Below, one piece after another: positions 50,840 to 64,000 of a DNA stretch of 64,000 nucleotides. The first letter of the stretch is position 1. Each line of letters opens with the position of its first letter. The DNA is from Solirhodobacter olei (lineage in GTDB: Bacteria > Pseudomonadota > Alphaproteobacteria > Rhodobacterales > Rhodobacteraceae), in the NCBI RefSeq assembly GCF_004010155.1, contig NZ_RRYH01000019.1, forward strand, positions 1 through 64,000, in the 5' to 3' direction. The notes below the pieces were generated by a model. That model saw nothing but the letters and a program-made list of their open reading frames with translations. It ran no database searches and was not told where the DNA came from. A program made the translations under genes and the position numbers.

Positions 50840-50891
50840 CGAACGAATCGCAGCCGATTTGGATACTGGGCCCGCGGACAGGAGGGTTCCA

Positions 50892-52199
50892 ATGAGCATC
50901 GTCGTATTCGATCCCGACAACACTGATGACGTCGACTGGAAGGACCGGATGCGTCATCCAATGGCAGAGGACCCGGCCGGCGGCATGTGGCTCTCGGATA
51001 CAGAGCCAAGTTTCATCAATACGGTGAAGCTCCGGGCCGAGCGGCTGGCCCGACTACGGAGCTGGATGGTGCGCGACGGCTATGGCGGGGTGGTGCTCTT
51101 CGATCCGTATAACCAGCGCTATGCCACCGGAACGCGCAACATGTTCGGTTACTTCCTGAGGAATTCCACCCGCTACTTCTTCATTCCCGCGGAAGGCCCG
51201 GTGGTGCTCTTCGATTATCCGCAGAGCTATCATGTCTCCGCCTCCGCTGACACGGTGGACGAGGTCCGCCCGTCAAAGCTCGTCTGGTCAGCTGTCTCTG
51301 GCAAGGACGGTGAGACGGTACGTCCGTTCGCGCAGGAGATCTCTGACCTGCTGAAGTCTCATGGCGACGGTTCGATGAAGATCGGGATGGATCGCTGCTC
51401 GCATATCCAAGCGGTTGCGCTTGAACAGGAGGGCTGCGAGGTCGTCGACGTCGCGGGTGCGATCCTGACGGAGGTTCGCGCGGTAAAGACGAAGGAGGAG
51501 GTAAAATGCCTTCAAGCCTCCATGGCCGGCGCCGAGGCCGCGGTGGCTGCGGTCCGCGAGGCGATCAAGCCAGGGGTGACGGAACAGGAGCTCTTCGCTG
51601 TCATGTATCATGAGGTGATCCGCCAGGGTGGCGAGTTCATCGAAACCCGGCTTCTGACGTCTGGTCAACGCACCAATCCCTGGTTCGGCGAGGCGTCGGG
51701 CCGTGTCGTCCGACCGGGAGAGCTGGTGGCACTCGACACCGACACGATCGGATGCTTCGGCTACTTCTCCGACTTCTCACGGACGTTCCGCTGCGGCCCT
51801 GGCTCGCCCACCCGCGAGCAGAAGACGCTCTACCGCATGGCGTGGGAACAGGTGCAGCACAACATGTCGATCATGAAGCCTGGAATGGAGTTTCGCGAAA
51901 TCGCCAATAAGGCATGGAAGATCCCGGAGAAATACGTGGAGCAGCGCTACACCTCGGTGATGCACGGGGTTGGCATGCATGGTGAAACGCCCTTCATCGC
52001 TCATGCGATGGACTACAACACCTACGGCCGCGACGGCATCCTGCTGCCCGGCATGTGCCTCTCGGTCGAAAGCTACATTGGCGAGAAGGGCGGCAAGGAG
52101 GGTGTGAAGCTTGAAGACGAGGTTCTGGTGACGGAAACCGGCATCGAGCTGCTGTCGCGCTTTCCATACGAGGAAGAGTTTCTGTCGGGCGAACTCTGA
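50892..52199 (+). CDS. DddP-like M24 family metallohydrolase/lyase
   Basis: A 435-residue M24 fold protein with the unusual DddP metal layout rather than the normal aminopeptidase P spacing. Metal residues are Asp282, Asp284 (LDTDTIG), Asp294 (FSDFSRT), His358 (MHGVG), Glu393 (SVES) and Glu408 (LEDE). With a constant offset of 13 these match Asp295, Asp297, Asp307, His371, Glu406 and Glu421 recalled for the DMSP lyase DddP; Tyr353 matches Tyr366. However the catalytic Asp377 position is Gly364 (GMHGET instead of GLCDEW), so DMSP cleavage is doubtful. It is coupled by overlap to a cysteine hydrolase. A substrate with a similar quaternary or carbamoyl group is possible. Confidence 0.85.
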   Translation: MSIVVFDPDNTDDVDWKDRMRHPMAEDPAGGMWLSDTEPSFINTVKLRAERLARLRSWMVRDGYGGVVLFDPYNQRYATGTRNMFGYFLRNSTRYFFIPAEGPVVLFDYPQSYHVSASADTVDEVRPSKLVWSAVSGKDGETVRPFAQEISDLLKSHGDGSMKIGMDRCSHIQAVALEQEGCEVVDVAGAILTEVRAVKTKEEVKCLQASMAGAEAAVAAVREAIKPGVTEQELFAVMYHEVIRQGGEFIETRLLTSGQRTNPWFGEASGRVVRPGELVALDTDTIGCFGYFSDFSRTFRCGPGSPTREQKTLYRMAWEQVQHNMSIMKPGMEFREIANKAWKIPEKYVEQRYTSVMHGVGMHGETPFIAHAMDYNTYGRDGILLPGMCLSVESYIGEKGGKEGVKLEDEVLVTETGIELLSRFPYEEEFLSGEL

Positions 52200-52882
52200 T
52201 GCACCAGCCGCTGGCCCTGCCGCTGCAAAAGACGGCGCTCGTCGTCGTTGATCTGCAGGAGGAACATCGCGCGGACCAACGCTTCCTCGTCGCGGATTTT
52301 GGATCTGTCCTGGCCCGCGCGGCGCAGTTGATCGACGCCGCGCGGGCGTCAGGAGTGCCGGTCCTGCATGCGGCCTATGTACGCGACTTTACGCTTGTGC
52401 CGCCGCGCAAGCTGGAGCCGCTCGGTGCCAGTGGCACGCCGCTCTTCAGTCCGCTCGGCCATGCGCTGACCGAGATCTGCCCAGAGGTAGCGCCGGCGCC
52501 CGGCGAATTCGTCCTGCGCAAGAACGACGCGAGCTGCTTCAGCGCCGCGGCGTTCCTCGCCGAGGTCACTCGCATCGGGGCCACCCACCTCGTCGTCTGC
52601 GGCGTCTGGACGGAGGCCTGCATCGCCGCAACCGTCCGCGATGCCGTGGCTGAGGGGCTGCGCGTTGTGCTGGTCAAAGACGCGTGTGGCTCCGGCACGG
52701 CGACGATGCATCAGACAGCGCTGCTCCACCTCGTCAACCGAATGTACGGCGGGGCAGTGACGGTGACCGAGGCTGCGGTAGGCCTTCTTGCCGGCGCCAC
52801 CCGCCCGGTTTGGCAGCTGCAGGGCTCCGCCCCCCTCCGCTTCGAGATCGATACGATAGCGCGGGACTACGACGCGCTCTGA
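52199..52882 (+). CDS. Isochorismatase-family cysteine hydrolase
   Basis: A 227-residue alpha/beta hydrolase of the N-carbamoylsarcosine amidase/nicotinamidase family. The catalytic triad is visible as Asp18 (VVVDLQEEH), Lys108 (VLRKNDAS) and Cys141 (VCGVWTEACIAA), with a preceding cis-peptide-type Val-Trp. The ATG overlaps the M24 stop (TGATG). Reactions in this family are hydrolysis of amides, ureides or carbamoyl groups. M24 creatinase plus N-carbamoylsarcosine amidase is a known catabolic pairing of the same two folds, offering one model for the locus, although the M24 protein resembles DddP more than creatinase. Confidence 0.87.
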   Translation: MHQPLALPLQKTALVVVDLQEEHRADQRFLVADFGSVLARAAQLIDAARASGVPVLHAAYVRDFTLVPPRKLEPLGASGTPLFSPLGHALTEICPEVAPAPGEFVLRKNDASCFSAAAFLAEVTRIGATHLVVCGVWTEACIAATVRDAVAEGLRVVLVKDACGSGTATMHQTALLHLVNRMYGGAVTVTEAAVGLLAGATRPVWQLQGSAPLRFEIDTIARDYDAL

Positions 52883-52923
52883 ACCGGCCCTCGGAAGAGG
52901 CCACCTGGACAGGGAGACCGACC

Positions 52924-54570
52924 ATGAAGAACTTCATGCTGACCGATCGAAAGCTCCATCCCTTCGCGCTCCGCTACGCGCGCGAATACCGAGAGGGCGC
53001 CCTATCGCGGCGAGAATTTTTCGCGGCAATGGCTGGTGTCGGCGTCACAGCTGCCGGTGCCATCGCGCTCGGCGGTATCGCACCAGAGGCGGCTAGGGCA
53101 GAAACAGCGCCAGTGAAGGGGGGCACCCTCCGCATTGGCCAGGTGGTGAAGCCTTTCCGCGACCCGCGCACCTTTGATGGCACCGAGATGGCCAACATCG
53201 CGCGCCAGTGCAACGAATACCTTGTGCGCTGGAAGCGGGACTTCAGCTTTGAACCGATGCTTCTTGCAGGCTGGGAAGCCTCGGACGACGCCAAGGCCCT
53301 GACCCTCAAGATCCGCCCCGGGATCACCTGGTCAAACGGCGACAAATTCGACGCGACGGATGTGATCTTCAACCTCACCCGCTGGTGCGACGCCACCGTC
53401 CCGGGCAATTCCATGGCCAGCCGCATGGCTACCCTGATCGACCCCAAGACGAAGCAGGCAGTGAAGGGCGGCATCGAAAAGGTCGATGACATGACCGTCC
53501 GGCTGAACCTGCCCAACCCAGACGTGACCCTCATAGCGGGCATGGCGGATTATCCGGCGCTCATCATGCACCGCTCCTATGACGGTGGCAGCGATCCGAT
53601 GAAGGCTCTCGCGATCACGACCGGGCCGTGCAAACTGGTTTCGTGGGAGCCTGCCAACAAGGCCTCCGTAAAACGCTCGTCCCGACCTTGGTGGAACGGT
53701 TCCTTCTGGCTCGAGGGTGCGGAATGGAACGATCTTGGCACGGATCCGACCGCGATGGTGTCCGCCTATGAGAGCGGTGAGATTGACGCCAATTACGAAA
53801 CGCCAGCATCCATGGTCGGCATGATGAAGGAGGCCGGCGCCGCCACGACAGATATCGCCACCGCCTCTACCATCGTCGCCCGGATGCAGGTCAATACCGC
53901 TCCCTATACTGACGAAAAGGTACGACAGGCCGTGCAGATGGCGGTGCGTAATGAGGTGCTCCTCGATATCGGCATCGACGGAAAGGGTGCGGTGGCCGCC
54001 GATCACCATGTCGGTCCCATGCATCCGGATTATGCCGATGTCGGACCTGCCAACTACGATCCGAAAAAGGCAATGACGTTGCTCAAGGCGGCAGGCAAGA
54101 CGGGTTTCGAGCATAATATCGTCTCAGTCGCCACCGATTGGCAGACGAATACCGCCGACGCTTTGGCCAACCAACTGCGCAAGGCCGGCCTCAAGGTGAA
54201 GCGGACCGTAGTGCCCGGGCCGGTCTACTGGACAAACTGGACGAAGTATCCGTTCTCCCTGACGGAATGGACCGGCAGGCCTCTCGGCATACAGGTCCTG
54301 TCTCTCGCCTATCGCTCCGGTGCGGCATGGAACGAGAGCGGCTTTGCCGATCCTCAGTTCGACAAGTGGCTCGACAAGGCCCAGGCCATCCCCAGCTCCA
54401 AGATCCGCCAGGCGGTAATGGCGAAGCTGGAGACCAGGCTCCGCGGCGCGGGCGTCATCATTCAACCCTATTGGCGGTCGGTCTTCCGATCCAACCGACC
54501 GAACGTGCATGGCTACGCGGCGCACCAGGCCTTCGAGCAGCATCTCGACCTGGTCTGGATGAGCGCGTGA
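52924..54570 (+). CDS. ABC transporter binding protein, family 5 (peptide/opine type), no transporter genes alongside
   Basis: A 548-residue DppA/OppA-type binding protein. The N-terminus is unusual: about 35 residues with YREGALSRREFFAAMAGVGV give a delayed twin-arginine Tat signal, followed by AETAPVKGGTLRIGQ at the start of the mature domain. GITWSNGDKFDATDVIFNLT is the family 5 signature. It follows the cysteine hydrolase after 41 bases and precedes an esterase gene. No Dpp-type permeases or ATPases are in the window, so either they lie elsewhere or were removed by the IS events just downstream. Confidence 0.88.
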   Translation: MKNFMLTDRKLHPFALRYAREYREGALSRREFFAAMAGVGVTAAGAIALGGIAPEAARAETAPVKGGTLRIGQVVKPFRDPRTFDGTEMANIARQCNEYLVRWKRDFSFEPMLLAGWEASDDAKALTLKIRPGITWSNGDKFDATDVIFNLTRWCDATVPGNSMASRMATLIDPKTKQAVKGGIEKVDDMTVRLNLPNPDVTLIAGMADYPALIMHRSYDGGSDPMKALAITTGPCKLVSWEPANKASVKRSSRPWWNGSFWLEGAEWNDLGTDPTAMVSAYESGEIDANYETPASMVGMMKEAGAATTDIATASTIVARMQVNTAPYTDEKVRQAVQMAVRNEVLLDIGIDGKGAVAADHHVGPMHPDYADVGPANYDPKKAMTLLKAAGKTGFEHNIVSVATDWQTNTADALANQLRKAGLKVKRTVVPGPVYWTNWTKYPFSLTEWTGRPLGIQVLSLAYRSGAAWNESGFADPQFDKWLDKAQAIPSSKIRQAVMAKLETRLRGAGVIIQPYWRSVFRSNRPNVHGYAAHQAFEQHLDLVWMSA

Positions 54571-54577
54571 CGCTCCG

Positions 54578-55411
54578 ATGCCGGACTGGGCAGAGGGAGA
54601 CCCGGCCATGCTTCGGGCGTGGCGCGACGCGCAGCCGGAGGTGGTCTCCCCCATCCTGCCGACGGGGCTGCGCGAGAAGGTAGTTCCGGCTGCGGGCGCA
54701 TTTTGCGGCGGTATTCTTTTTGAACCATTCCAGCGCGTTGACCCTAGGATGGTGTTGCACTTCCACGGAGGTGGTTTCGTCGTAGGCTCGCCCCACACAC
54801 ACCGGATCGTCGCAGCCACTATCTGCGCGGAACTTGGTTTACCCGTTCTGTCCGCAGCCTATCGCCTTGCGCCGGAGCACTGCCTGCCTGACCAACCTGC
54901 GGATGCCGCCGCGGCAATCGAGGTAGCCGAGGCGATGTTCGACGGCACAGTAATCCTTGCCGGCGACAGCGCCGGAGCACTCGTGGCCCTTTGGGGGTAT
55001 CACGCGGCTCCGGCTTCGCGTCGAGACAGGATCGCCGGTGCGCTCCTCTTCTACGGCATCTTCGGCACACCGCCCTCTCCCGATGAAGGCGACCCCGCAC
55101 TTGTCGCGGCGGGACTGGACGCACGATCGATAGGGGCTGCCTATCGGCGGGTCGACCCCAAGTGTCTGATCGGGACAGCCAAGGAGTTCACACCAATGTC
55201 AGCAGGGTTTCGCCTGCCTGCGAAGACGGTCGTCATAGGGGCAGGGGCGGACCCCCTAGTTGCAGACAGCCACCGCTTCGCCGCGTGCCGGCCGGAGTGT
55301 TGCACACTGCAACTGGTAGCGGACGAGCCGCACGGTTTTCTGTCCTCGCCGCAGCCTTCGGCGAGAGCGCGAAGCGCCGTTCGCTCTGCTGCTGCAAGCT
55401 TGATGTTGTAG
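54578..55411 (+). CDS. Alpha/beta hydrolase, hormone-sensitive-lipase type esterase
   Basis: A 277-residue esterase. The oxyanion-hole HGGG is at residues 63-66 (LHFHGGGFVVG), the nucleophile Ser131 in GDSAG, and the Asp and His candidates lie in GAGADPLVADS and EPHGF. It resembles acetyl-esterase/lipase family IV enzymes, but the C-terminal part is shorter than usual (family 300-320 residues). It starts 7 bases after the SBP stop, so it is the last gene of the M24 operon. Its role is probably to hydrolyse an ester of the imported compound. Confidence 0.85.
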   Translation: MPDWAEGDPAMLRAWRDAQPEVVSPILPTGLREKVVPAAGAFCGGILFEPFQRVDPRMVLHFHGGGFVVGSPHTHRIVAATICAELGLPVLSAAYRLAPEHCLPDQPADAAAAIEVAEAMFDGTVILAGDSAGALVALWGYHAAPASRRDRIAGALLFYGIFGTPPSPDEGDPALVAAGLDARSIGAAYRRVDPKCLIGTAKEFTPMSAGFRLPAKTVVIGAGADPLVADSHRFAACRPECCTLQLVADEPHGFLSSPQPSARARSAVRSAAASLML

Positions 55412-56108
55412 CCCAACGCATCTTGCAGAACGTGCGATAAGCACTTTCTCGCCGGACCTGTAGATCTGGCGAAGGCTGAGGGTGCGGGACGCGGCGGAGG
55501 ACATAGGCCGGATACCCTTTGCCGCGCCCTGCTCGAGCGGCGGCAAGGCGCCCCATCTCGGCTGTTCCACGCCCGAGTTCAATACCCTGGGAGCGGTCTG
55601 GCCGCTTTCCCGTTGGCGCGGACCATTGGCCGCCGGCGCGCGGTGGCGGCATCAGTGCCAGGCGGATATTGATGCGGAGCGCAGGTCGCGCAATGTCTCG
55701 CGCAAGGAGCTTGTGAGAGCCAGCTTCTATCGCCCGCCTGCTTACCTCAACGCGTTGTGTCGTGGGTGGTCTCCTGACAATCTTCGACCTGAAGCCGTGC
55801 GAGAGGAACTTGAAGCCATTCTTAATGATCCCGGGCGCTTCGTTGGCACGTTCGATGATCCAGGTGCCGCGGTAGAACCTGCCGTTCGCCGCGGTCCATT
55901 CAGCGGTCTAGGAAGCGGACGAAGCGGACGTCGCTCCCAGCGCAAGACGTTGATCGGCAACCAACATCAGTCGACCATCCGTTCGACCTGTGGGAGGCCA
56001 CTCAGGGAACGTTGGCCAACAACTCCACAGGAGGCGCAGGATGATCATCCGCGAGGGAACCGTGAAGACGGTCAAGGCTCCGGCCGAGAACTGCCCCGAA
56101 TATGGCCT
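55412..56108. other. Gap with no recognisable gene; probable recombination scar
   Basis: Nearly 700 bases between the esterase and the IS5 remnant. A long frame on the plus strand runs from 55482 into the IS5 fragment. One part of it, SPDNLRPEAVREELEAILND (around 55765-55830), reads like genuine protein, but no family is recognised and the rest is Arg/Gly-rich. Treated as decayed or chimeric DNA. Confidence 0.45.
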
Positions 56109-56650
56109 GATGGTTTGGTCGAGAGCCCGATCCGGATGGCTGGGCTCGACTGGCCAGTTAGGGACTTTTCGACGCTTTGCAGGCGGCAAGCGCGGATCGG
56201 GGTTCAGATCCCCTATCGCCGCACGGGGAAACCTTGAGCCTGCTTGTCGACATTCAGCCGGTACGTGCCACTGATGAGGTTCGTGTGAACCGGCGAGGGG
56301 GGAGTGAAGTTCCGGGGCGATGGCGAATAGTTGTCCCGCGAGCATGGGCCCTCCCGCCGCAGGCAATGGCGGAAGGTCCACATCGCCATGGATACGGAGA
56401 CCGGCGACATACGCGCGGTCAAGTTCACCTCGAGCCGTCAAGGGGACAGCCCTCTGCTACCGGAACTGCCGGCGCAATTCCCCGGGGATGAGGAGGTCGC
56501 CACCGTCACCGCGGATGGTGCCTATGACACGCGACGATGCCACGCCGCGATCATCGCGCACGGTGCCCATGCCGGCATTCCAATCCGCCGCAACGGGCGC
56601 GCCTGAAAAGAGGACTGCCCTGCAGCCTCGGCTCGAAACGAGATCCTGCG
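56109..56650 (+). pseudogene. IS5-family transposase, broken by stops and truncated
   Basis: Reading frames give MAGLDWPVRDFSTLCRRQ, then (after stops) GVKFRGDGE, TAG 56328-56330, SREHGPSRRRQWRKVHIAMD, VATVTADGAYDTRRCH, IPIRRNGRA, TGA 56604-56606, KEDCPAASARNEILR. This follows the IS5-family DDE transposase order (GLDW-P-DFSTL, GDGEW, RKVH, VTADGAYDTR with catalytic Asp, RNGR-WKEDC). Both named stops replace a conserved Trp. A frameshifted patch lies between about 56237 and 56300. The gene is cut exactly at 56650 where the IS6 element's left repeat begins, so the C-terminal catalytic Glu region is missing. Confidence 0.82.
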
Positions 56651-56667
56651 GGGATTGCCAATTTGTT
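56651..56667 (+). repeat. Left terminal inverted repeat of the IS6 element
   Basis: gggattgccaatttgtt; matches the right repeat with one mismatch (T/G at position 12). Confidence 0.85.
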
Positions 56668-56701
56668 GGGCCGAAATCGGCATGGGCCTGAGTGGTGTTC
56701 G

Positions 56702-57421
56702 TCAGGCGCTCATTTCGAGGGCATAGATAGCCCAGAGATCGAAGGCGTCGGATCTGGCGTGTCGCCAGGAGAGAGCGGAGAGACGATAGCGGCGGGGTCG
56801 GAAGAGCGTGTCGACCTGGTCACGTGCGGCGAGGAACCTCTGGGCCTGTCCGGGTGACTTGAGCCGCCCCATGATCTTCTCGCGCTTTCGGGTCGACCGG
56901 TGCGATCCTTCGATGCGGTTGTTGAGCCCCTTGTGCGCGCGGTGATCCGCATCGGGTGCGAGATGGCCGATCGGTCTGGTATAACTGCGCAGCTTGTCGG
57001 TGACGACGACACGCGGAGTGACGAACCGGCCGATCAGCCGCTTCAGGAACCGCTTTGCTGCTTTCGCATTCCGCTGTTTCTGCACGAGGATGTCGAGCGC
57101 ATCGCCGTTTGCGTCGACTGCTCGCCAAAACCAGAACTTCTCGCCGTTGATCGGCACGACGACCTCGTCGAGGTGCCACTTGTCGCTGGCGGTCGGCCTG
57201 TCGCGCCTGATGCAGGCGGCGAAGTGGCTCCCGAAGCGGTTCACCCACTGCCCCACGGTTTTCCGACTGATAATCACCCCGCGCTCGGCAAGCAGATCCT
57301 CGACATCCCCGGTACTGAGCGCGAACCGGTGATAGGCCCGGACCGCGTAAGCCACGATCTCGCGAGGAAGACGATAGCCCTTCAGGCGCGGCAGGGTGTC
57401 AGGCATCTTCATCCTCGCCAC
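56702..57421 (-). CDS. IS6-family transposase (intact)
   Basis: A 239-residue DDE transposase. The N-terminal helix-turn-helix is in LAERGVIISRKTVGQWVNRF. The catalytic triad is visible as Asp in KWHLDEVVVPI, Asp in VVVTDKLRSY and Glu in NNRIEGSHRSTRKRE. The length fits the family (230-240). There are no stops or frameshifts, so the element may be active. Members move by cointegrate formation and often delete or bracket adjacent DNA, which fits its junction between two unrelated gene blocks. Confidence 0.92.
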   Translation of the reverse strand: MARMKMPDTLPRLKGYRLPREIVAYAVRAYHRFALSTGDVEDLLAERGVIISRKTVGQWVNRFGSHFAACIRRDRPTASDKWHLDEVVVPINGEKFWFWRAVDANGDALDILVQKQRNAKAAKRFLKRLIGRFVTPRVVVTDKLRSYTRPIGHLAPDADHRAHKGLNNRIEGSHRSTRKREKIMGRLKSPGQAQRFLAARDQVDTLFRPRRYRLSALSWRHARSDAFDLWAIYALEMSA

Positions 57422-57442
57422 CTAAGACAACGCTACCCCAGG

Positions 57443-57459
57443 AACAACTTGGCAATCCC
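57443..57459 (-). repeat. Right terminal inverted repeat of the IS6 element
   Basis: aacaacttggcaatccc on the plus strand, reverse complement of the left repeat except for one base; it lies 21 bases before the transposase start codon. Confidence 0.85.
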
Positions 57460-57502
57460 AAGTTGTCCGGTGGTCACAACGGCACCTGCGTGCAGCGACG
57501 GT

Positions 57503-58279
57503 TCAGACTGTCAAATAACCGCCGTCGACGAACACCGTCGTCCCGGTGACATAGGCCGAGGCGTCGGACGCCAGGAACACCGCCGCGTCGGCAACCTCTT
57601 CCGGCCGCCCCATGCGCCCCATCGGGATGTGGGCGAGCGACTGGCGGCGGCTCTCGGCATGACCCGGGTCGCCGCCCCGCGTCATAGGCGTATCGGTGAA
57701 GCCCGGCGCCAGCGCGTTGACCCGCACCCCGAAGGGAGCGAGGTCGAGCGCCATCGCCTTTACCAGCATTTTCGCCCCGCCCTTGGAGGCGACATAGGCC
57801 GCGCAGTTCCTCTGCGCCACTTCGCTCACTTGCGAGGTGACGAGCGTGATCGAGCCGCCCCCCCGCGGTACCATCGCCCGCGCAGCAGCCGCGGCGAAAA
57901 GAAAGGAGCCGGTCAGGTTGGTGGCGATTACTGCCTCCCACTGCGCGGGCGTGATTTCGTGGGCGAGCGCCGCCGGCCCACCGATCCCGGCCGAGGAGAT
58001 CGCGGCATCGATCCGGCCGAGCCGCTCCACTGCCCGGGCGAAGAGCGCCGCGCTCGCCTCCGGATCGCGCACGTCGCAGGCCGCCGCCTCCACCCTTATG
58101 TCCCCACGCGCTATGCCGGCCGCCGTCTCGGCCGCGCCGGCCTCGGCCAGGTCGGCGAGGAGCAGATCGGCCCCGGCCCCGGCCAACGCCTCGGCGATTG
58201 AGCGGCCGATGCCGCTACCGGCCCCGGTCACCACTGCCACCCGTCCCTTCAGTGCATCGCTTGCCCAAGCCCCGCTCAT
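57503..58279 (-). CDS. Short-chain dehydrogenase/reductase (SDR)
   Basis: A 258-residue classical SDR. The cofactor motif is TGAGSGIG (residues 18-25), NAG-equivalent is SSAGIGG, the catalytic Ser lies in LVTSQVSE and Tyr/Lys in AAYVASKGG. An acidic residue after beta-2 (LLLADLAEAG) suggests NAD preference. The start overlaps the aminotransferase stop by four bases (ATGA), so it is the second gene of a leftward pair. The IS6 right end is only 43 bases beyond its stop; genes after it were probably removed. Confidence 0.9.
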   Translation of the reverse strand: MSGAWASDALKGRVAVVTGAGSGIGRSIAEALAGAGADLLLADLAEAGAAETAAGIARGDIRVEAAACDVRDPEASAALFARAVERLGRIDAAISSAGIGGPAALAHEITPAQWEAVIATNLTGSFLFAAAAARAMVPRGGGSITLVTSQVSEVAQRNCAAYVASKGGAKMLVKAMALDLAPFGVRVNALAPGFTDTPMTRGGDPGHAESRRQSLAHIPMGRMGRPEEVADAAVFLASDASAYVTGTTVFVDGGYLTV

Positions 58280-59625
58280 AGCATCCCCTCGCGTTTCAGC
58301 ATCCCAAGGCTTTCGTCGAAGGCGGCGACCGTCACCGCCACATCCCCTGGCGTATGGGCGGCGGAGAGAAGCCCGCCGGGCCAGCCGCTGAGATCGATGC
58401 CGTTCACGAGCATCGCCATCCGAAGAAGTCGCGCGAGCCCCGGCGGCTGCGCCTGCAGCCCCGCACGTCCGAGCCGCCTCGGATCGAACGGCGCCTCAGC
58501 GAGATCGGGCGCCGTGCACAGGTGAAAGGCCGAGGCCTCGCCATAGACGTGCCAGGCCACTTGCCTGGCGGCGAGCACCTCTGCGAGCCCGCGCCGCAGG
58601 TCGGCGGCCAGCGCCTCGGCCCGCCGGTTCGGTGCCCCGTCCCGGATCGCGGCGAGCGTGGCCACCCCGGCCGCCGCCGAAGCCGGCGCCGCGTTGAATG
58701 TGCCGGGGTGGTAGATCTTCTGTCGCCCGGCGCGCTCCGCGACCTCGAAATCGAGCCCTTCGAGAATCTCTGCCCGCCCCGCCACCGCGCCGCCCGGCTG
58801 CCCGCCGGCGACGATCTTGGCGAGTGTGGTCAGGTCAGGGGTGATCCCGGTCTTCTCCTGCACCCCGCCGGGGCTGACCCGGAAGCCGGTGATCACCTCA
58901 TCGAAGATCAACAGCGTGCCAGTCTCGCGCGACCAGTTTCGGAGCTGTGCGAGAAAGTCGGTCGAAAGCGGGATCTTCCCCGTACAGGCGCCAAGGGGCT
59001 CCAGGATCACCGCCGCGAAGGCGCCCGTCCGTAGCGCCGCCTCAACCCTCGCCTCGTTGTAGGGGTCGAGTGCGGCGGTCTGCGCGGCCACCGCCTCGGG
59101 CACGCCGATCACCGTGCCGCCGTTGAAATGCGAGGCATAGCCAGCAGTCATGTCGTCCTGCCAGCCGTGATAGTGGGCGTGAAACCGCATCAGCCGGTCC
59201 CGCCCTGTGAAGGCACGGGCGAGGCGGACGGCCATCTGGGTGGCTTCCGAGCCGGAGGCGTGGAAGCGTACCTTCTCGGCCGAAGGCACCATGGCGACGA
59301 TAGCCTCGGCCCAGGCCACCTCGGCCTCGTGGCAGGCGGCGAAATGGGTGCCGCGGGCCATCTGCTCCGCGACTGCCCGCATCACATCGGGGGGGTTGTG
59401 GCCGAGCAGCAGCGCGCCGTGGCCGCCGAAATAATCGATGTAGCAATTGCCGTCGGCGTCCCACTTCCGCGCGCCCTCGGCATGGGTGGCATAGACCGGA
59501 TGCGGCCTCAAGTGGCGGGAATCGTGGACGATCCCGCTCGGCAGCACCGACCGAGCCCGTTCCGCCAGCACCGCCGACCGTGCAGTGCGTGCGCTGTAGA
59601 GAGCCTCGATCCTCCCCTCCGTCAT
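58276..59625 (-). CDS. Class III aminotransferase/aminomutase (glutamate-1-semialdehyde aminomutase-like)
   Basis: A 449-residue PLP enzyme of the HemL-like branch of class III. HASGSEATQMAVRLARAFTG binds the phosphate; LLIFDEVITGFRVSPGG supplies the cofactor Asp and LTTLAKIVAGGQPGG the PLP Lys. True HemL catalyses glutamate-1-semialdehyde isomerisation, but members like this in catabolic clusters act on beta- or other amino acids. ATG 59625 follows ggggagacgga; upstream in-frame starts are less credible. It diverges from the N-carbamoyl hydrolase gene, with two dyads in the intervening gap. Confidence 0.87.
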   Translation of the reverse strand: MTEGRIEALYSARTARSAVLAERARSVLPSGIVHDSRHLRPHPVYATHAEGARKWDADGNCYIDYFGGHGALLLGHNPPDVMRAVAEQMARGTHFAACHEAEVAWAEAIVAMVPSAEKVRFHASGSEATQMAVRLARAFTGRDRLMRFHAHYHGWQDDMTAGYASHFNGGTVIGVPEAVAAQTAALDPYNEARVEAALRTGAFAAVILEPLGACTGKIPLSTDFLAQLRNWSRETGTLLIFDEVITGFRVSPGGVQEKTGITPDLTTLAKIVAGGQPGGAVAGRAEILEGLDFEVAERAGRQKIYHPGTFNAAPASAAAGVATLAAIRDGAPNRRAEALAADLRRGLAEVLAARQVAWHVYGEASAFHLCTAPDLAEAPFDPRRLGRAGLQAQPPGLARLLRMAMLVNGIDLSGWPGGLLSAAHTPGDVAVTVAAFDESLGMLKREGML

Positions 59626-59721
59626 TCCGTCTCCCCGGGGAACCCACTCATTGCAGTCCCGAGAAAAGGAGCTCGGTTCCACGAAGTCACGAAATTTTAT
59701 AGGGGTCTAAGGGTCGAAACA

Positions 59722-59761
59722 GCTTGCCGCGCTCGGAATGTTCCAGTTCAGGGCGGCAAGC
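59722..59761. promoter_or_regulatory. Perfect 9-bp inverted repeat in the divergent promoter gap
   Basis: GCTTGCCGC (59722-59730) and GCGGCAAGC (59753-59761) are exact reverse complements, 22 bases apart, in the 263-bp gap between the aminotransferase and carbamoylase genes. This could be a regulator site or the base of a stem; no regulator gene is in this block of the window. Confidence 0.45.
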
Positions 59762-59819
59762 CCCGGGATTGTTGCGCCGATGGCCTCGAAAATATTGCGC
59801 TCGCATGGCCCGTCTAATT

Positions 59820-59840
59820 CGCCGCGCCAGTTGCGCGGCG
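59820..59840. repeat. GC hairpin upstream of the carbamoylase gene
   Basis: CGCCGCGC (59820-59827) and GCGCGGCG (59833-59840) form a perfect 8-bp stem with a 5-base loop, 49 bases before the carbamoylase start codon. It could affect the leader of that transcript or end a leftward one. Confidence 0.4.
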
Positions 59841-59888
59841 ACGCCATTCGCTTAGCGTCTCTGCATGCTGCACATCTCGGGGAGCCCA

Positions 59889-60812
59889 ATGGCCCGCACA
59901 TTCGTTGCCGCCGCCGCCCAGCTCGGCCCAATCGCTCGGCACGAGGGCCGCGTACCCGTCGTCGCCCGCATGGTGACGCTCCTTCACGAGGCGAAGGCCC
60001 GCGGTGTCTCCTTCGTCGCCTTCCCAGAGATGGCGCTCACCACCTTCTTCCCGCGCTGGCATATCGAAGATTCAGATGAGGTGCTTTCCTATTTCGAAGC
60101 CTCGATGCCCGGGCCCGAAACCCGGCCGCTGTTCGATACCGCCCGCGACCTCGGCATCGGCTTCTACCTCGGTTATGCCGAACTGATCCCCGGCCGCTCG
60201 GGCCTCAACCATCTGGGCTATAACACCGCGATCCTGGTCGACTCGGCTGGAAACGTCACCGCCAAGTACCGCAAGGTCCATGTCCCGGGCAACGCCGTGC
60301 CAGATGCCAGCCTCAAGCTCCAGCACCTCGAGCCATGGTATTTTGACGATGGCAACCTCGGGTTCCCGGTCACCGAGACGATGGGCGGCAAGTTCGGCAT
60401 GCTCATCTGCAACGACCGTCGGTGGCCCGAGAGTTGGCGAATGCTCGGCCTCCAGGGGGCGGAGATTGTCGCGCTCGGCTACAACTCGCCCTCCCAGCTT
60501 CCTGACAATCCCGCCCAGAACGCGCTCCGCAAGATGCACCATCTGCTGCCGATGCAGTCGGCGGCCTACCAGAACGGCCTCTGGATCGTCGCCACCGCCA
60601 AGGCCGGGCTCGAAGGCGGCTGCCACATGATGGGCCACTCCTGCATTATCGCGCCCTCGGGAGAGGTGGTGGCCCTTTCTGCGACCGACGGCGACGAGCT
60701 TCTCACCTATCGCATCGACCTCGACGCTACCCAAGAATACAAGCGCTTCTTCGATTTCAAAACCTATCGCCGCCCCGAGGCCTACGGCCTGATCACCCAG
60801 CGGCACGAGTAA
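59889..60812 (+). CDS. N-carbamoyl-D-amino-acid hydrolase (nitrilase superfamily)
   Basis: A 307-residue carbon-nitrogen hydrolase. The triad is Glu47 (FPEMAL), Lys129 (KYRKVHVPG) and Cys174 (MLICNDRRWPE). The Lys-Cys spacing of 45 equals that recalled for Agrobacterium D-carbamoylase (Lys127, Cys172), and NDRRWPESWR is its family signature. It hydrolyses N-carbamoyl-D-amino acids to D-amino acid, CO2 and ammonia. ATG 59889 has a clear ribosome site (ggggag); the start 24 bases earlier lacks one. The next gene starts four bases after its stop, so they form an operon. Confidence 0.9.
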   Translation: MARTFVAAAAQLGPIARHEGRVPVVARMVTLLHEAKARGVSFVAFPEMALTTFFPRWHIEDSDEVLSYFEASMPGPETRPLFDTARDLGIGFYLGYAELIPGRSGLNHLGYNTAILVDSAGNVTAKYRKVHVPGNAVPDASLKLQHLEPWYFDDGNLGFPVTETMGGKFGMLICNDRRWPESWRMLGLQGAEIVALGYNSPSQLPDNPAQNALRKMHHLLPMQSAAYQNGLWIVATAKAGLEGGCHMMGHSCIIAPSGEVVALSATDGDELLTYRIDLDATQEYKRFFDFKTYRRPEAYGLITQRHE

Positions 60813-60816
60813 GCCC

Positions 60817-61731
60817 ATGATCGCCCCCACCCGCGATTTCATCGGCTATGCCGGCGAACCTCCCGCGGCCCACTGGCCGAACGACGCCCGTGTCGCCGTC
60901 AACTTCTGCCTGAACTACGAGGAGGGGGGAGAGCTCTCCATCCTGAATGGTGACGACCGGTCCGAGACCCGGATCTCCGACGTAGCGGTGGAGGCGCGGA
61001 TCGGTGCGCGCGACCTCAACATTGAATCTAGCTATGAATACGGCTCCCGCGTCGGCTACTGGCGGATCATGCGCGCCTTCACCGAGCGCGGGCTCGCCTG
61101 CACCGTCAACCTCGTCGGCCGTGCCGCCGAGGCGAACCCCGTCGCCGTGGCCGAGATGGTGAAGGCGGGCTTCGACCTCCAGCTCCACGGCTGGCGCTGG
61201 ATCGACCAGGAGACGCTTTCCGAGGCAGAGGAGCGCGACCACATCGCCCGCCAGATCGCGCTTGCCACTCGCCTGGCCGGCAGCGCGCCCCTCGGCTACT
61301 ACGCGGGCCTTCCCTCGATGAACACCCGCCGCCTGGTGGTGGAGGCCGGCTCCTTCCTCTACGACTCGGATGTCTACAACGACGACCTGCCCTACTGGTC
61401 GCCTGACCACCCGGGGCACCTGCTGGTCCCCTATTCCCTCGACACCAACGACTCGCGCTTCGGCCGCGCCGAGCGCTGCTATCAGGTCGGTGGTGAGTTT
61501 GTTGAATACATCAGCGACAGCTTCGACCTGCTTCATGCAGAGGGCGCTGGCCATCCCCAGATGATGACCGTCGGTTTGCACGCCCGCCTCATCGGCCGCC
61601 CCGGCCGGATTGGCGCGCTCCACCGGATCCTCGACCACATGAAGGCGAGGGGCGATGTCTGGATCTGCCGCCGCGCCGATCTCGCCCTTCACTGGGCCAA
61701 AGAGTGTCCCGACCCGCGGCTGAACACCTGA
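60817..61731 (+). CDS. Polysaccharide-deacetylase-fold amidohydrolase, PuuE allantoinase-like
   Basis: A 304-residue NodB-homology protein. RDFIGYAGEPPAAHWPNDAR and VAVNFCLNYEEGGELSILNG are typical of PuuE allantoinases, which open cyclic ureides. The usual NodB metal motif is partly modified (LNYEEG in place of a DDG-type motif), as in this subfamily. LQLHGWRWIDQ and YDSDVYNDDLPYW are further family marks. It is co-transcribed with the carbamoylase. A cyclic ureide (allantoin, hydantoin or dihydropyrimidine) is the likely substrate class. It converges with the M20 gene across a 59-bp gap containing a 7-bp inverted repeat. Confidence 0.85.
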   Translation: MIAPTRDFIGYAGEPPAAHWPNDARVAVNFCLNYEEGGELSILNGDDRSETRISDVAVEARIGARDLNIESSYEYGSRVGYWRIMRAFTERGLACTVNLVGRAAEANPVAVAEMVKAGFDLQLHGWRWIDQETLSEAEERDHIARQIALATRLAGSAPLGYYAGLPSMNTRRLVVEAGSFLYDSDVYNDDLPYWSPDHPGHLLVPYSLDTNDSRFGRAERCYQVGGEFVEYISDSFDLLHAEGAGHPQMMTVGLHARLIGRPGRIGALHRILDHMKARGDVWICRRADLALHWAKECPDPRLNT

Positions 61732-61770
61732 CCACCGATCCCTTTCCCCTTGGAGAACTATCTTCGGTGG
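61732..61770. terminator. Inverted repeat in a convergent gap, possible terminator
   Basis: CCACCGA (61732-61738) and TCGGTGG (61764-61770) are exact reverse complements flanking a 25-base loop, located directly after the PuuE-like gene and before the convergent M20 stop. The long loop weakens the terminator assignment. Confidence 0.3.
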
Positions 61771-61790
61771 GTAAGGCGGGGGCCGGCTTG

Positions 61791-63056
61791 TTAGCCCGCA
61801 CCGAACGTCAGAACAAACTCGGTGAGCAGGGCGATCCCGAGCCCCAGATCCTCCGCCTCCATCGCCTCGTCAGGGTTGTGGCTGCCGTTGGCATTTCGCA
61901 CGAAGACCATGGCCACCGGCACCCCCGCCGCCGCGAAGGCTGCCGCGTCATGGCCCGCTCCGCTCGGGATCGGAGCCGCCGGGATGCTAAGCCGTCCCGC
62001 CGCCGCCGAAAGCCCAGCCATGAGCCGCGGGTCCATTCGCGCGGGTGCCCAGTTGAAGCTTTGCCCGAGATCAAAACGCACCCGCCTATGAGCCTCGATC
62101 GTGGCCAGGGCCTGGCGGAGCTCCCGCTCCACCCGGTTGAGCACCTCGAGAAACTCGCAGCGCACGTCGAGGGAGAATCCCAGCTCCCCTAGCACCCGGC
62201 TGCCGCCGTGCTGGGTGGGATCGGATTCCACCCGCCCGAAGGTGATGGTGAGCTCACGCCCCTCGGCCTCCAGCTGGTCCCAGATTGCCTCAGTCGCGGC
62301 GACGAGATCGGCGAAGCCCGTCACCGCGTCCGACCGGGAAAACCGGGGCTCCGCCCCGGAATGGGCATAGGCGCCGAAGATGCGGGCCTTCGGAAAGCGC
62401 CAGCCACCGGTCATCGCGGTCACGATGCCCAAGGGTTCGCCCCGCGCCAGCAGCCGAGGACCCTGCTCGATATGAAGTTCCACGAAGCCCACGATCCGGT
62501 CGGGGGCGATCTGCGCCACGCCCCGGCCCACCGCGCCGGGGTCGAAGCCCAATTCTGCCATGTGTTCGGCAAGCGTCCGCCCTGTGTCGGCTCGCCGGGC
62601 ATCGAGCGCGGACACGGGCAGGCGGCCGAGCGCCGCCTCCGCCCCAGGGTAAGAGAGCGGGAACCACACCGCCTCCTCCGCCCGGGCCGCCATCACGATC
62701 AGGTCGCGCTCCGTCTCCACTCCCCGCCGGGCCAGCTCCGCCATCACCCCGAGCCCTGCGACGACCCCGGCCGCGCCGTCAAAATTGCCGCCATGCGGCA
62801 CCGAATCAAGATGCGAACCGATTACAAGCGCGGGCAGGCTGGGGTCGCGCCCAGGCAGAGTGAGGTAGAGGTTGCCCGCCGCATCCACTCGCGCCTTGGC
62901 GCCGAGCGCCCGGCCGGTGCGGGCCGCAATGTCATGCGCCCGCTGCTCCCCAGGTCCGTAGGAGGCGCGCGTGACCCCCGGCGGGTCGAGGCTCGCCTCC
63001 CGGATCTCGTCGAGAAGCGCCGCTGCGAAGCCGGTCATCTCGGCAAGCCCCTCCAT
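61791..63056 (-). CDS. M20-family Zn-dependent hydrolase (N-carbamoyl-L/beta-amino-acid hydrolase, AllC/HyuC-like)
   Basis: A 421-residue amidohydrolase of the hydantoinase/carbamoylase family. Metal ligands and catalytic residues are visible: His in VIGSHLDSVPHGG, Asp in NFDGAAGV, the Glu pair in RAEEAVWFP, His in VELHIEQGPRL and the terminal His in NGSHNPDEAM. It hydrolyses N-carbamoyl-beta-alanine, N-carbamoyl-L-amino acids or allantoate-type compounds. ATG 63056 follows aaggtg; GTG 63059 and ATG 63038 are alternatives. It begins a few bases after the BKACE stop, so both belong to one leftward operon. Confidence 0.88.
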   Translation of the reverse strand: MEGLAEMTGFAAALLDEIREASLDPPGVTRASYGPGEQRAHDIAARTGRALGAKARVDAAGNLYLTLPGRDPSLPALVIGSHLDSVPHGGNFDGAAGVVAGLGVMAELARRGVETERDLIVMAARAEEAVWFPLSYPGAEAALGRLPVSALDARRADTGRTLAEHMAELGFDPGAVGRGVAQIAPDRIVGFVELHIEQGPRLLARGEPLGIVTAMTGGWRFPKARIFGAYAHSGAEPRFSRSDAVTGFADLVAATEAIWDQLEAEGRELTITFGRVESDPTQHGGSRVLGELGFSLDVRCEFLEVLNRVERELRQALATIEAHRRVRFDLGQSFNWAPARMDPRLMAGLSAAAGRLSIPAAPIPSGAGHDAAAFAAAGVPVAMVFVRNANGSHNPDEAMEAEDLGLGIALLTEFVLTFGAG

Positions 63057-63060
63057 CACC

Positions 63061-63945
63061 TTAGCCCCGCCCGAGCCCGAGCCGAGCGCGGAGCTCCCGC
63101 GCCGAGAGCGGCGCCACCCCTACGCGCGCCATCACCGCGACCGCCTCCTCCACCAGCCGGGCATTCTCGACCAGCTCGCCGTCGAGTGTGGGGTGATCCT
63201 CGATCCCGGTCCTTAGGCCGCCCCCGCGCTCCACGACCAGGGGCGCGATGGCGCGGTGCGCCGTCTCGCCCTTCGAGCTTGCGCCCCAGTCGACACCCTC
63301 GGGCATCAGGTCCAGCATCGCCGCCAGCGCCGAGGGCCGGGCAGGTGCGCCCCAGACCACGCCGAAGCCGATCGAGAAGGGGGTCCGCTCCGGCACCGCG
63401 CCCAGGGACCGCATCTCGGCCGCAAGCGCCATCTGGCCGAGGTCGAAGACCGTCAGCTCCGGCAATACCCGGGTCGGGCGCAGAAGCTCTGCGATGCGGT
63501 AGAGCATGTCGGTCGGCGACAGGTAGACCTCGCCCCCCGTCCCGTAGGAGAAGCTTCCGCAGTCGAGCCCGGTCAGATCGGCGCCCGCCGGCACCAGATG
63601 GGCGATCCGCGCTTCCGGCGGCAGGATCGCCGCGGCATCCGCCGGTGCCACCGCGGGGGCGGTCAGCGCCACCGGCAGCGTCCCGCCGCCGCCGGAGGAG
63701 AGATGCACCAGCACATCCTCGTCCACCTCGCGGATGCGCGCCACCAACTCGGCGTAAAGCGCGGGATCGTTGGAAGAGCGGCCCGTCGCCGGATCGCGCA
63801 CGTGGCAATGGACCACCGCCGCCCCGGCCCGTGCGGCAGCGCAAGCGTCGGCCGCAATTTCGGCCGGGGTGATCGCGACATGGGGCGTGGCGTCGCGCCC
63901 AATCACCGACCCGTTCACCGCGCAGGTGATCCAGCGCGCCGTCAC
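63061..63945 (-). CDS. BKACE-family beta-keto acid cleavage enzyme (DUF849)
   Basis: A 294-residue TIM-barrel enzyme. ITCAVNGSVIGRDATPHVAI at the N-terminus, His46 and His48 in VVHCHVRDPATG (zinc ligands), and the C-terminal RTGIEDHPTLDG are BKACE hallmarks. These enzymes condense a beta-keto acid with acetyl-CoA to give acetoacetate and an acyl- or aminoacyl-CoA. The first member acts on 3-keto-5-aminohexanoate in lysine fermentation. The start is GTG 63945, overlapping the stop of an upstream gene as GTGA. Context suggests that the beta-keto acid comes from transamination of a beta-amino acid. Confidence 0.88.
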   Translation of the reverse strand: MTARWITCAVNGSVIGRDATPHVAITPAEIAADACAAARAGAAVVHCHVRDPATGRSSNDPALYAELVARIREVDEDVLVHLSSGGGGTLPVALTAPAVAPADAAAILPPEARIAHLVPAGADLTGLDCGSFSYGTGGEVYLSPTDMLYRIAELLRPTRVLPELTVFDLGQMALAAEMRSLGAVPERTPFSIGFGVVWGAPARPSALAAMLDLMPEGVDWGASSKGETAHRAIAPLVVERGGGLRTGIEDHPTLDGELVENARLVEEAVAVMARVGVAPLSARELRARLGLGRG

Positions 63946-63998
63946 GCTGGCCGCCCGCGCCGGAGAAGCGCTCCATGCCCCACTGCGCCAGGCTCAAT
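63942..63998 (-). CDS. 3' end of an upstream gene (partial, hydantoinase/dihydropyrimidinase-like guess)
   Basis: A frame open from the window edge ends in TGA 63944-63942 overlapping the BKACE GTG (GTGA), a typical coupled junction. The last 18 residues are IEPGAVGHGALLRRGRPA. The ending G-x-G-x-L-x-R-x-G-R-P is reminiscent of hydantoinase/dihydropyrimidinase C-termini and would fit the carbamoylase neighbours, but 18 residues cannot prove it. Confidence 0.35.
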   Translation of the reverse strand: MEPGAVGHGALLRRGRPA

Positions 63999-64000
63999 TC

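Follow-up and report, generated by a model that had tools for sequence, protein, structure and literature searches.

The ureide gene block

We analysed a 64,000-nt stretch of DNA from Solirhodobacter olei (hereafter the window), which is part of a 133752-bp contig; coordinates past 64000 are given as contig positions. At its right end lies a block of genes encoding ureide-hydrolysing enzyme families, an aminotransferase, an SDR-family oxidoreductase and a protein of the BKACE family (PF05853/DUF849). A preliminary description had named six of these genes and drawn from them a route in which ring opening, decarbamoylation and transamination would yield a beta-keto acid that BKACE cleaves with acetyl-CoA to acetoacetate. 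Here we describe the block as a conserved unit whose BKACE-family protein lacks residues on which such a cleavage would depend.

Families were assigned by Pfam and NCBIfam profiles together with PDB sequence matches (Table 1). The six genes occupy window 57503-63945, and their open reading frames and Pfam matches bear out the families given to them. A hydantoinase had also been suspected just outside the window, and extending the analysis past 64000 located it as the next gene.

Table 1. Features of the ureide block and its left border
Feature	Position	Strand	Basis
IS6-family insertion sequence	56651-57459, transposase 56702-57421	-	PF13610; 17-nt terminal inverted repeats (56651-56667 / 57443-57459)
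SDR-family oxidoreductase	57503-58279	-	PF13561, YxxxK motif
HemL-like class III aminotransferase	58276-59682	-	PDB 2CY8 nearest
N-carbamoyl-D-amino-acid amidohydrolase (DCase), CN-hydrolase	59865-60812	+	1FO6, 53% identity
PuuE-like cyclic-ureide hydrolase paralogue 1 (PuuE1), deacetylase fold	60817-61731	+	TIGR03212, 367 bits
M20 hydantoinase/carbamoylase-family amidase, L-carbamoylase type	61791-63059	-	TIGR01879, 255 bits
BKACE-family (PF05853/DUF849) protein without catalytic Glu and CoA contacts	63061-63945	-	PF05853, 212 bits (cut-off 24.8)
Hydantoinase/dihydropyrimidinase-family amidohydrolase	contig 63942-65351 (3' end 63942-64000 in window)	-	
Second PuuE-like gene (PuuE2)	contig 65463-66431	+	
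ABC transporter binding protein	contig 66516-68324	-	
NAD-dependent epimerase-like gene	contig 68417-69457	+	

The genes are closely packed. One minus-strand unit runs from the hydantoinase through the BKACE-family gene to the M20 gene with gaps of -4 and +1 bp, the first two genes sharing a 4-bp overlap, and a second runs from the aminotransferase to the SDR gene (gap -4 bp). On the plus strand, DCase and PuuE1 are 4 bp apart. The aminotransferase and DCase genes are divergent, as are those for the hydantoinase and PuuE2, and PuuE1 and M20 converge.

Co-inheritance of the block

One other genome, the metagenome-assembled genome Rhodobacteraceae RI_331, carries the block in identical gene order, including PuuE2, the binding protein and the epimerase-like gene. 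The two loci share about 79-80% nucleotide identity, and their proteins are 70-89% identical. DNA similarity begins exactly at base 57503, the stop codon of the SDR gene, so that the left limit set in the preliminary description is a real border. Rightward, it continues to about contig 84145, with one 4.9-kb stretch present in the window contig only. The ratio dN/dS between the two genomes lies at 0.11-0.26 for all ten genes compared; it is 0.13 for the SDR gene and 0.12 for the BKACE-family gene, the dN of which (0.069) is the lowest of the ten. Given the tight gaps (-4 to +1 bp), the collinearity with RI_331 and these dN/dS values, comparison of the two genomes indicates that the block is under purifying selection and co-inherited, and is not a chance grouping.

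The hydantoinase-PuuE2 intergenic region contains an inverted repeat, TTTCCG-N-CCGGGAAA, that is conserved in both genomes (contig-side locus L007, 15332-15485; RI_331 locus L010, 8456-8603) and may be an operator. When both divergent intergenic regions were searched, a repeat similar to this TTTCCG...CGGGAAA element was found upstream of the aminotransferase gene in RI_331, whose counterpart in the window is degenerate. The block itself showed no recognisable regulator gene.

The IS6 element, 43 bp beyond the left border, is a border marker outside the pathway block. Besides this element, window 55412-57502 holds a stretch that resembles transposase remnants. Where the window has the insertion sequence, RI_331 instead has EutC/EutB-like genes (hydroxyectoine utilisation) next to the block, together with an ABC transporter of the amino-acid type (L010 16359-20487). 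Further left in the window, on the plus strand at 50859-55411, are genes for an M24 creatinase/DddP-like hydrolase, an isochorismatase-family amidohydrolase, a peptide-type binding protein and an alpha/beta hydrolase; this unit resembles a second cluster of ureide or creatinine type, and it lies outside the conserved block. To the right, the collinear region at contig 69480-84145 encodes SoxA/GcvT-like, HisC-like aminotransferase, MttB-like methyltransferase, D-2-hydroxyacid dehydrogenase and DapA-like proteins and holds a further gene at contig 81718-83098.

Altered active site of the BKACE-family protein

The AlphaFold2 model of the BKACE-family protein (pLDDT 89) is a normal KCE-type TIM barrel that matches the KCE and BKACE15 structures at Z 36-40. 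When residues were mapped on these two enzymes, the zinc ligands H46, H48 and E249 and the active-site residues R245 and D250 proved to be kept. The catalytic glutamate (KCE E143, equivalent to BKACE15 E171), on the other hand, is Thr165 in the window protein and threonine in RI_331 too, whereas 41 of the 42 other sampled relatives having a residue at this position have glutamate. For the KCE chain in the PDB, our numbering combines the residue numbers H46, H48, E143, R226, E230 and D231, which we take to be those of KCE and for which the alignment needs no gap, with the offset of 28 to BKACE15; the pairs R254/R226 and E171/E143 (BKACE15/KCE) both give this offset.

The residues that would bind coenzyme A (CoA) have changed as well. 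BsfD, a relative of the same fold, contacts CoA through R226, Y251 and K254 (PMC12871164). The first of these positions is Glu227 in both genomes (arginine in 31 of 42 relatives), the second is T253 in the window protein, and the third is deleted in both genomes (lysine or arginine in 39 of 42). Further near-invariant positions have changed along with these, including Asn to H81, Thr to S83, Gln to A229 and Gly to R159. Tyr145 is replaced by phenylalanine in the window protein; we did not use this change as an argument against cleavage, since 26 of the 42 relatives with a residue there, among them the carnitine-cluster-type paralogue, share the phenylalanine.

In a characterised BKACE, the substitution E171L abolished activity and E171D left 5% (PMC11961710). 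With both the glutamate and the CoA contacts lost, we rejected a plain BKACE identity for the protein after residue mapping. The zinc site is kept, the catalytic glutamate and CoA contacts are gone and the protein shows the strongest conservation in the block; for these reasons its sequence suggests that it has probably been repurposed for a different zinc-dependent, likely CoA-independent role. The fold family hosts other chemistries, including those of BsfD (acetyl transfer with decarboxylation), CESH[D] (epoxide hydrolysis) and ObcA. The genome encodes a further BKACE-family paralogue (G000:C56:17635-18417; L006 1501-2283), for which KCE is the nearest solved structure; this paralogue has isoleucine in place of the catalytic glutamate and asparagine in place of the conserved aspartate.

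Ring-opening enzymes, carbamoylases and aminotransferase

The nearest PDB entries to the hydantoinase-family protein are D-hydantoinases (E about 1e-82), and its metal-ligand motifs (HxH, Lys, His, His, Asp) are present as SHCH, TSLKLF, LVHAED, FHVSG and SSDHSP. It scores below the NCBIfam equivalog cut-offs (360 versus 393 bits for TIGR02033; 455 versus 647 for the PRK13404 subfamily). PuuE1 and PuuE2, which are 41% identical to each other, likewise fall short of the TIGR03212 cut-off of 424.6 bits, PuuE2 scoring 244, and a full-scoring PuuE (534 bits) is encoded separately in the genome (G000:C69). From these scores and the separate full PuuE, both are diverged PuuE paralogues as judged by profile, and we rejected the idea that either serves as the organism's allantoinase.

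The recognition set of D-carbamoylases comprises His129, His144, Arg175, Arg176 and His215 together with a Glu-Lys-Cys triad (PMC3546935). DCase keeps all of it, with the triad E55/K137/C182 and the recognition residues H139, H154, R185, R186 and H225. The M20 protein exceeds the TIGR01879 cut-off (204 bits), has the N-carbamoyl-L-amino-acid hydrolase 3N5F as its nearest PDB entry and retains the metal motifs GSHLD, EE, ELHIEQG and GSHNPDEA.

The aminotransferase matches D-phenylglycine aminotransferase (2CY8) at E 1.8e-93, far more strongly than the beta-transaminases 4AO9 and 2YKU (about 1e-40 to 1e-42). Its pyridoxal phosphate-lysine motif reads TLAKIVAGG. This ranking tells against the beta-amino and beta-keto acid intermediates of the route first drawn. 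Together with the complete set of D-alpha-amino-acid residues in DCase, the proximity to D-phenylglycine aminotransferase makes alpha-amino acids the likelier products, rather than beta-amino acids.

Recurrence in other genomes

No orthologue of the BKACE-family protein was found at E<=1e-60 in 294 other Rhodobacterales genomes, a congener included, and no copy in plasmids at E<=1e-40. The next-best BKACEs in 385 alphaproteobacterial genomes are 36-41% identical, none exceeding 41%, and none of the ten loci inspected has a homologue of the hydantoinase, DCase, M20 or PuuE in about 10 kb on each side. Homologues of the aminotransferase at about 50% identity occur in 24 further genomes of the 289 from alphaproteobacteria, and no close homologue was found in plasmids. 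Their neighbours are heterogeneous, SDR being the sole gene type seen in more than two cases; one of the aminotransferase homologues directly adjoins a DCase gene (locus L053).

Hydantoinase, M20 or PuuE homologues stand beside DCase in many of the 40-odd alphaproteobacterial loci inspected. A plasmid of Sulfitobacter sp. SK012 (L186 2082-17338) carries an ABC transporter, a racemase-family gene, two deacetylase-fold genes, DCase and a hydantoinase; its ureide cluster also has a GTP-binding protein and HyuA/HyuB-type genes. The hydantoinase-DUF849-M20 triplet with the Thr165 signature was seen in two genomes only, that of the window and RI_331. These DCase neighbourhoods elsewhere, set against a BKACE link in one genome pair, indicate that the ureide core recurs as a module and that the DUF849, aminotransferase and SDR additions are lineage-specific on present evidence.

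The block might alternatively be a loose collection of nitrogen-scavenging genes that was assembled by mobile elements and shares no common pathway. The abutting IS6 element and apparent transposase remnants would fit such an origin, as would the absence of the BKACE-family orthologue from the Rhodobacterales genomes and congener searched and the heterogeneous neighbours of the aminotransferase homologues. However, two genomes keep the exact gene order at 70-89% protein identity, with overlapping genes and purifying selection on all of them, and we regard this explanation as very improbable.

Proposed pathway and alternatives

Gene content, order, co-inheritance, purifying selection and the residues kept or lost come directly from the sequence. 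On balance, and by a narrow preference, we interpret the block as a stereo-complementary hydantoin or ureide catabolic island with a divergent DUF849 enzyme; the substrates, the order of steps and the DUF849 reaction are inferred. Candidate substrates are cyclic ureides, that is, 5-substituted hydantoins and/or dihydropyrimidines. The hydantoinase, aided by the two PuuE-like paralogues, would open the rings to N-carbamoyl acids, the two enantiomers of which would be decarbamoylated by the D-specific CN-hydrolase carbamoylase and the L-type M20 carbamoylase. The D-phenylglycine-aminotransferase-like enzyme could then convert the freed D-amino acid into a keto acid, and the adjacent SDR may reduce or oxidise its product. 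The DUF849 protein, encoded between the hydantoinase and M20, would perform a different zinc-dependent step, likely CoA-independent, on a pathway acid. More tentatively, it may be a CoA-independent zinc enzyme that acts on an N-carbamoyl or ureido acid by a new chemistry, in which case the block would specify an undescribed ureide route built on a repurposed BKACE scaffold; we consider this version plausible, though short of an even chance.

Several points weigh against the island as we interpret it. The role of the catalytic glutamate is proven in one BKACE and with malonate semialdehyde only, and older work preferred arginine as the base, which is present in the window protein. The CoA contacts are known from BsfD, a single relative, and the CoA-contact arginine is likewise missing from 11 of the 42 other members. 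The aminotransferase shares only 40% identity with the closest relative that has been characterised, and the BKACE link comes from a single lineage, the Rhodobacteraceae, to which both genomes belong.

The ring opening and decarbamoylation of the preliminary description stand as a clustered, co-inherited unit with the expected hydantoinase beside it; neither an unrelated neighbour nor separate inheritance, the two findings that would have counted against that description, was seen. Its final part, from beta-keto acid to acetoacetate, does not fit a protein that in both genomes has lost the glutamate and CoA-contact residues; as drawn, the acetoacetate route is unlikely on sequence grounds. A fuller form of it would start from a 6-substituted dihydropyrimidine, which the hydantoinase opens, M20 converts to a beta-amino acid and the aminotransferase to a beta-keto acid, so that BKACE with acetyl-CoA gives acetoacetate and an acyl-CoA. 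This form, too, we judge unlikely. The tight coupling of the hydantoinase, BKACE and M20 genes favours it, and HemL-like enzymes include beta-transaminases. D-hydantoinases have been reported to convert aryl-dihydropyrimidines to N-carbamoyl-beta-amino acids (PMC3546935), and in engineered Escherichia coli a BKACE can use malonate semialdehyde formed from beta-alanine by a transaminase (PMC11961710). Besides the threonine at the catalytic position and the lost CoA contacts, however, the aminotransferase is much nearer to D-phenylglycine aminotransferase than to beta-transaminases, DCase is of the D-alpha type, and in the loci inspected no BKACE gene clusters with the aminotransferase homologues of about 50% identity.

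The SoxA/GcvT-like and MttB-like genes of the collinear region make N-methylated ureides a possible substrate class. The island would then be a pathway for an N-methylated ureide or creatinine-type compound, from which ring opening and decarbamoylation release a methylated amine or amino acid for the SoxA-like and MttB-like neighbours to demethylate, an explanation to which we give a low probability. The extension of the RI_331 collinear region into the SoxA/GcvT-like and MttB-like (TIGR02369) genes is consistent with it, as are the genes of the M24 (creatinase-fold) and isochorismatase families that lie shortly before the block in the window, and an M24 homologue that another genome carries close to a DCase-PuuE locus (L136). 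Yet the M24/isochorismatase unit lies outside the conserved block, the sarcosine oxidase subunit genes of the window contig fall inside a stretch missing from RI_331, and N-carbamoylsarcosine needs neither a D-specific carbamoylase nor a D-aminotransferase.

Comparison with known systems

The catabolic island that we favour resembles bacterial hydantoin-utilisation (hyu) clusters such as those of Rhodobacter sphaeroides and Aminobacter, which likewise combine a hydantoinase/dihydropyrimidinase with a D-carbamoylase and/or an L-carbamoylase or beta-ureidopropionase (PMC3546935). It differs from them in having its two carbamoylases in different operons and in adding two PuuE-like proteins, a D-phenylglycine-aminotransferase-like enzyme, an SDR and the DUF849 protein. 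The aminotransferase and 2CY8 are both HemL-like class III enzymes, 40% identical over 441 residues; in the window enzyme the GGRG motif close to the C terminus has lost its arginine to another residue (SGWPGG).

The DUF849 protein shares PF05853, the TIM barrel, the His-His-Glu zinc ligands and the active-site arginine and aspartate with KCE (2Y7D-G) and Paracoccus BKACE15 (8RIO/8RIP), but differs from both in Thr165, Glu227, the deleted CoA-contact Lys/Arg and the changed H81 and S83. Among solved structures, BsfD (9ZSC) is nearest in sequence (E 2.8e-45); this DUF849 enzyme of flavophos biosynthesis (PMC12871164) has a similar long loop after strand 3 and carries out non-BKACE chemistry on the fold. 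BsfD keeps the glutamate and R226/Y251/K254, all lacking in the window protein, in which the phosphonate-binding Arg91 of BsfD corresponds to Thr89. CESH[D] (the cis-epoxysuccinate hydrolase 5ZMU/5ZMY), which belongs to the same fold family and has a metal site, sets a precedent for hydrolysis without CoA on such a scaffold. It is less similar (E about 1e-15) and keeps two of the three KCE metal ligands, whereas the window protein keeps all three.

We found no paper in the literature searched that describes BKACE and hydantoinase together. An annotation pipeline would name the DUF849 protein a 3-keto-5-aminohexanoate or beta-keto acid cleavage enzyme leading to acetoacetate, a name that is unsafe given its residues. 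A conserved and strongly selected DUF849 protein encoded between a hydantoinase and a carbamoylase is a concrete place to seek a new reaction of the fold, and it bears on the natural role of hydantoinase/carbamoylase clusters, a question posed in the hyu literature (PMC3546935).

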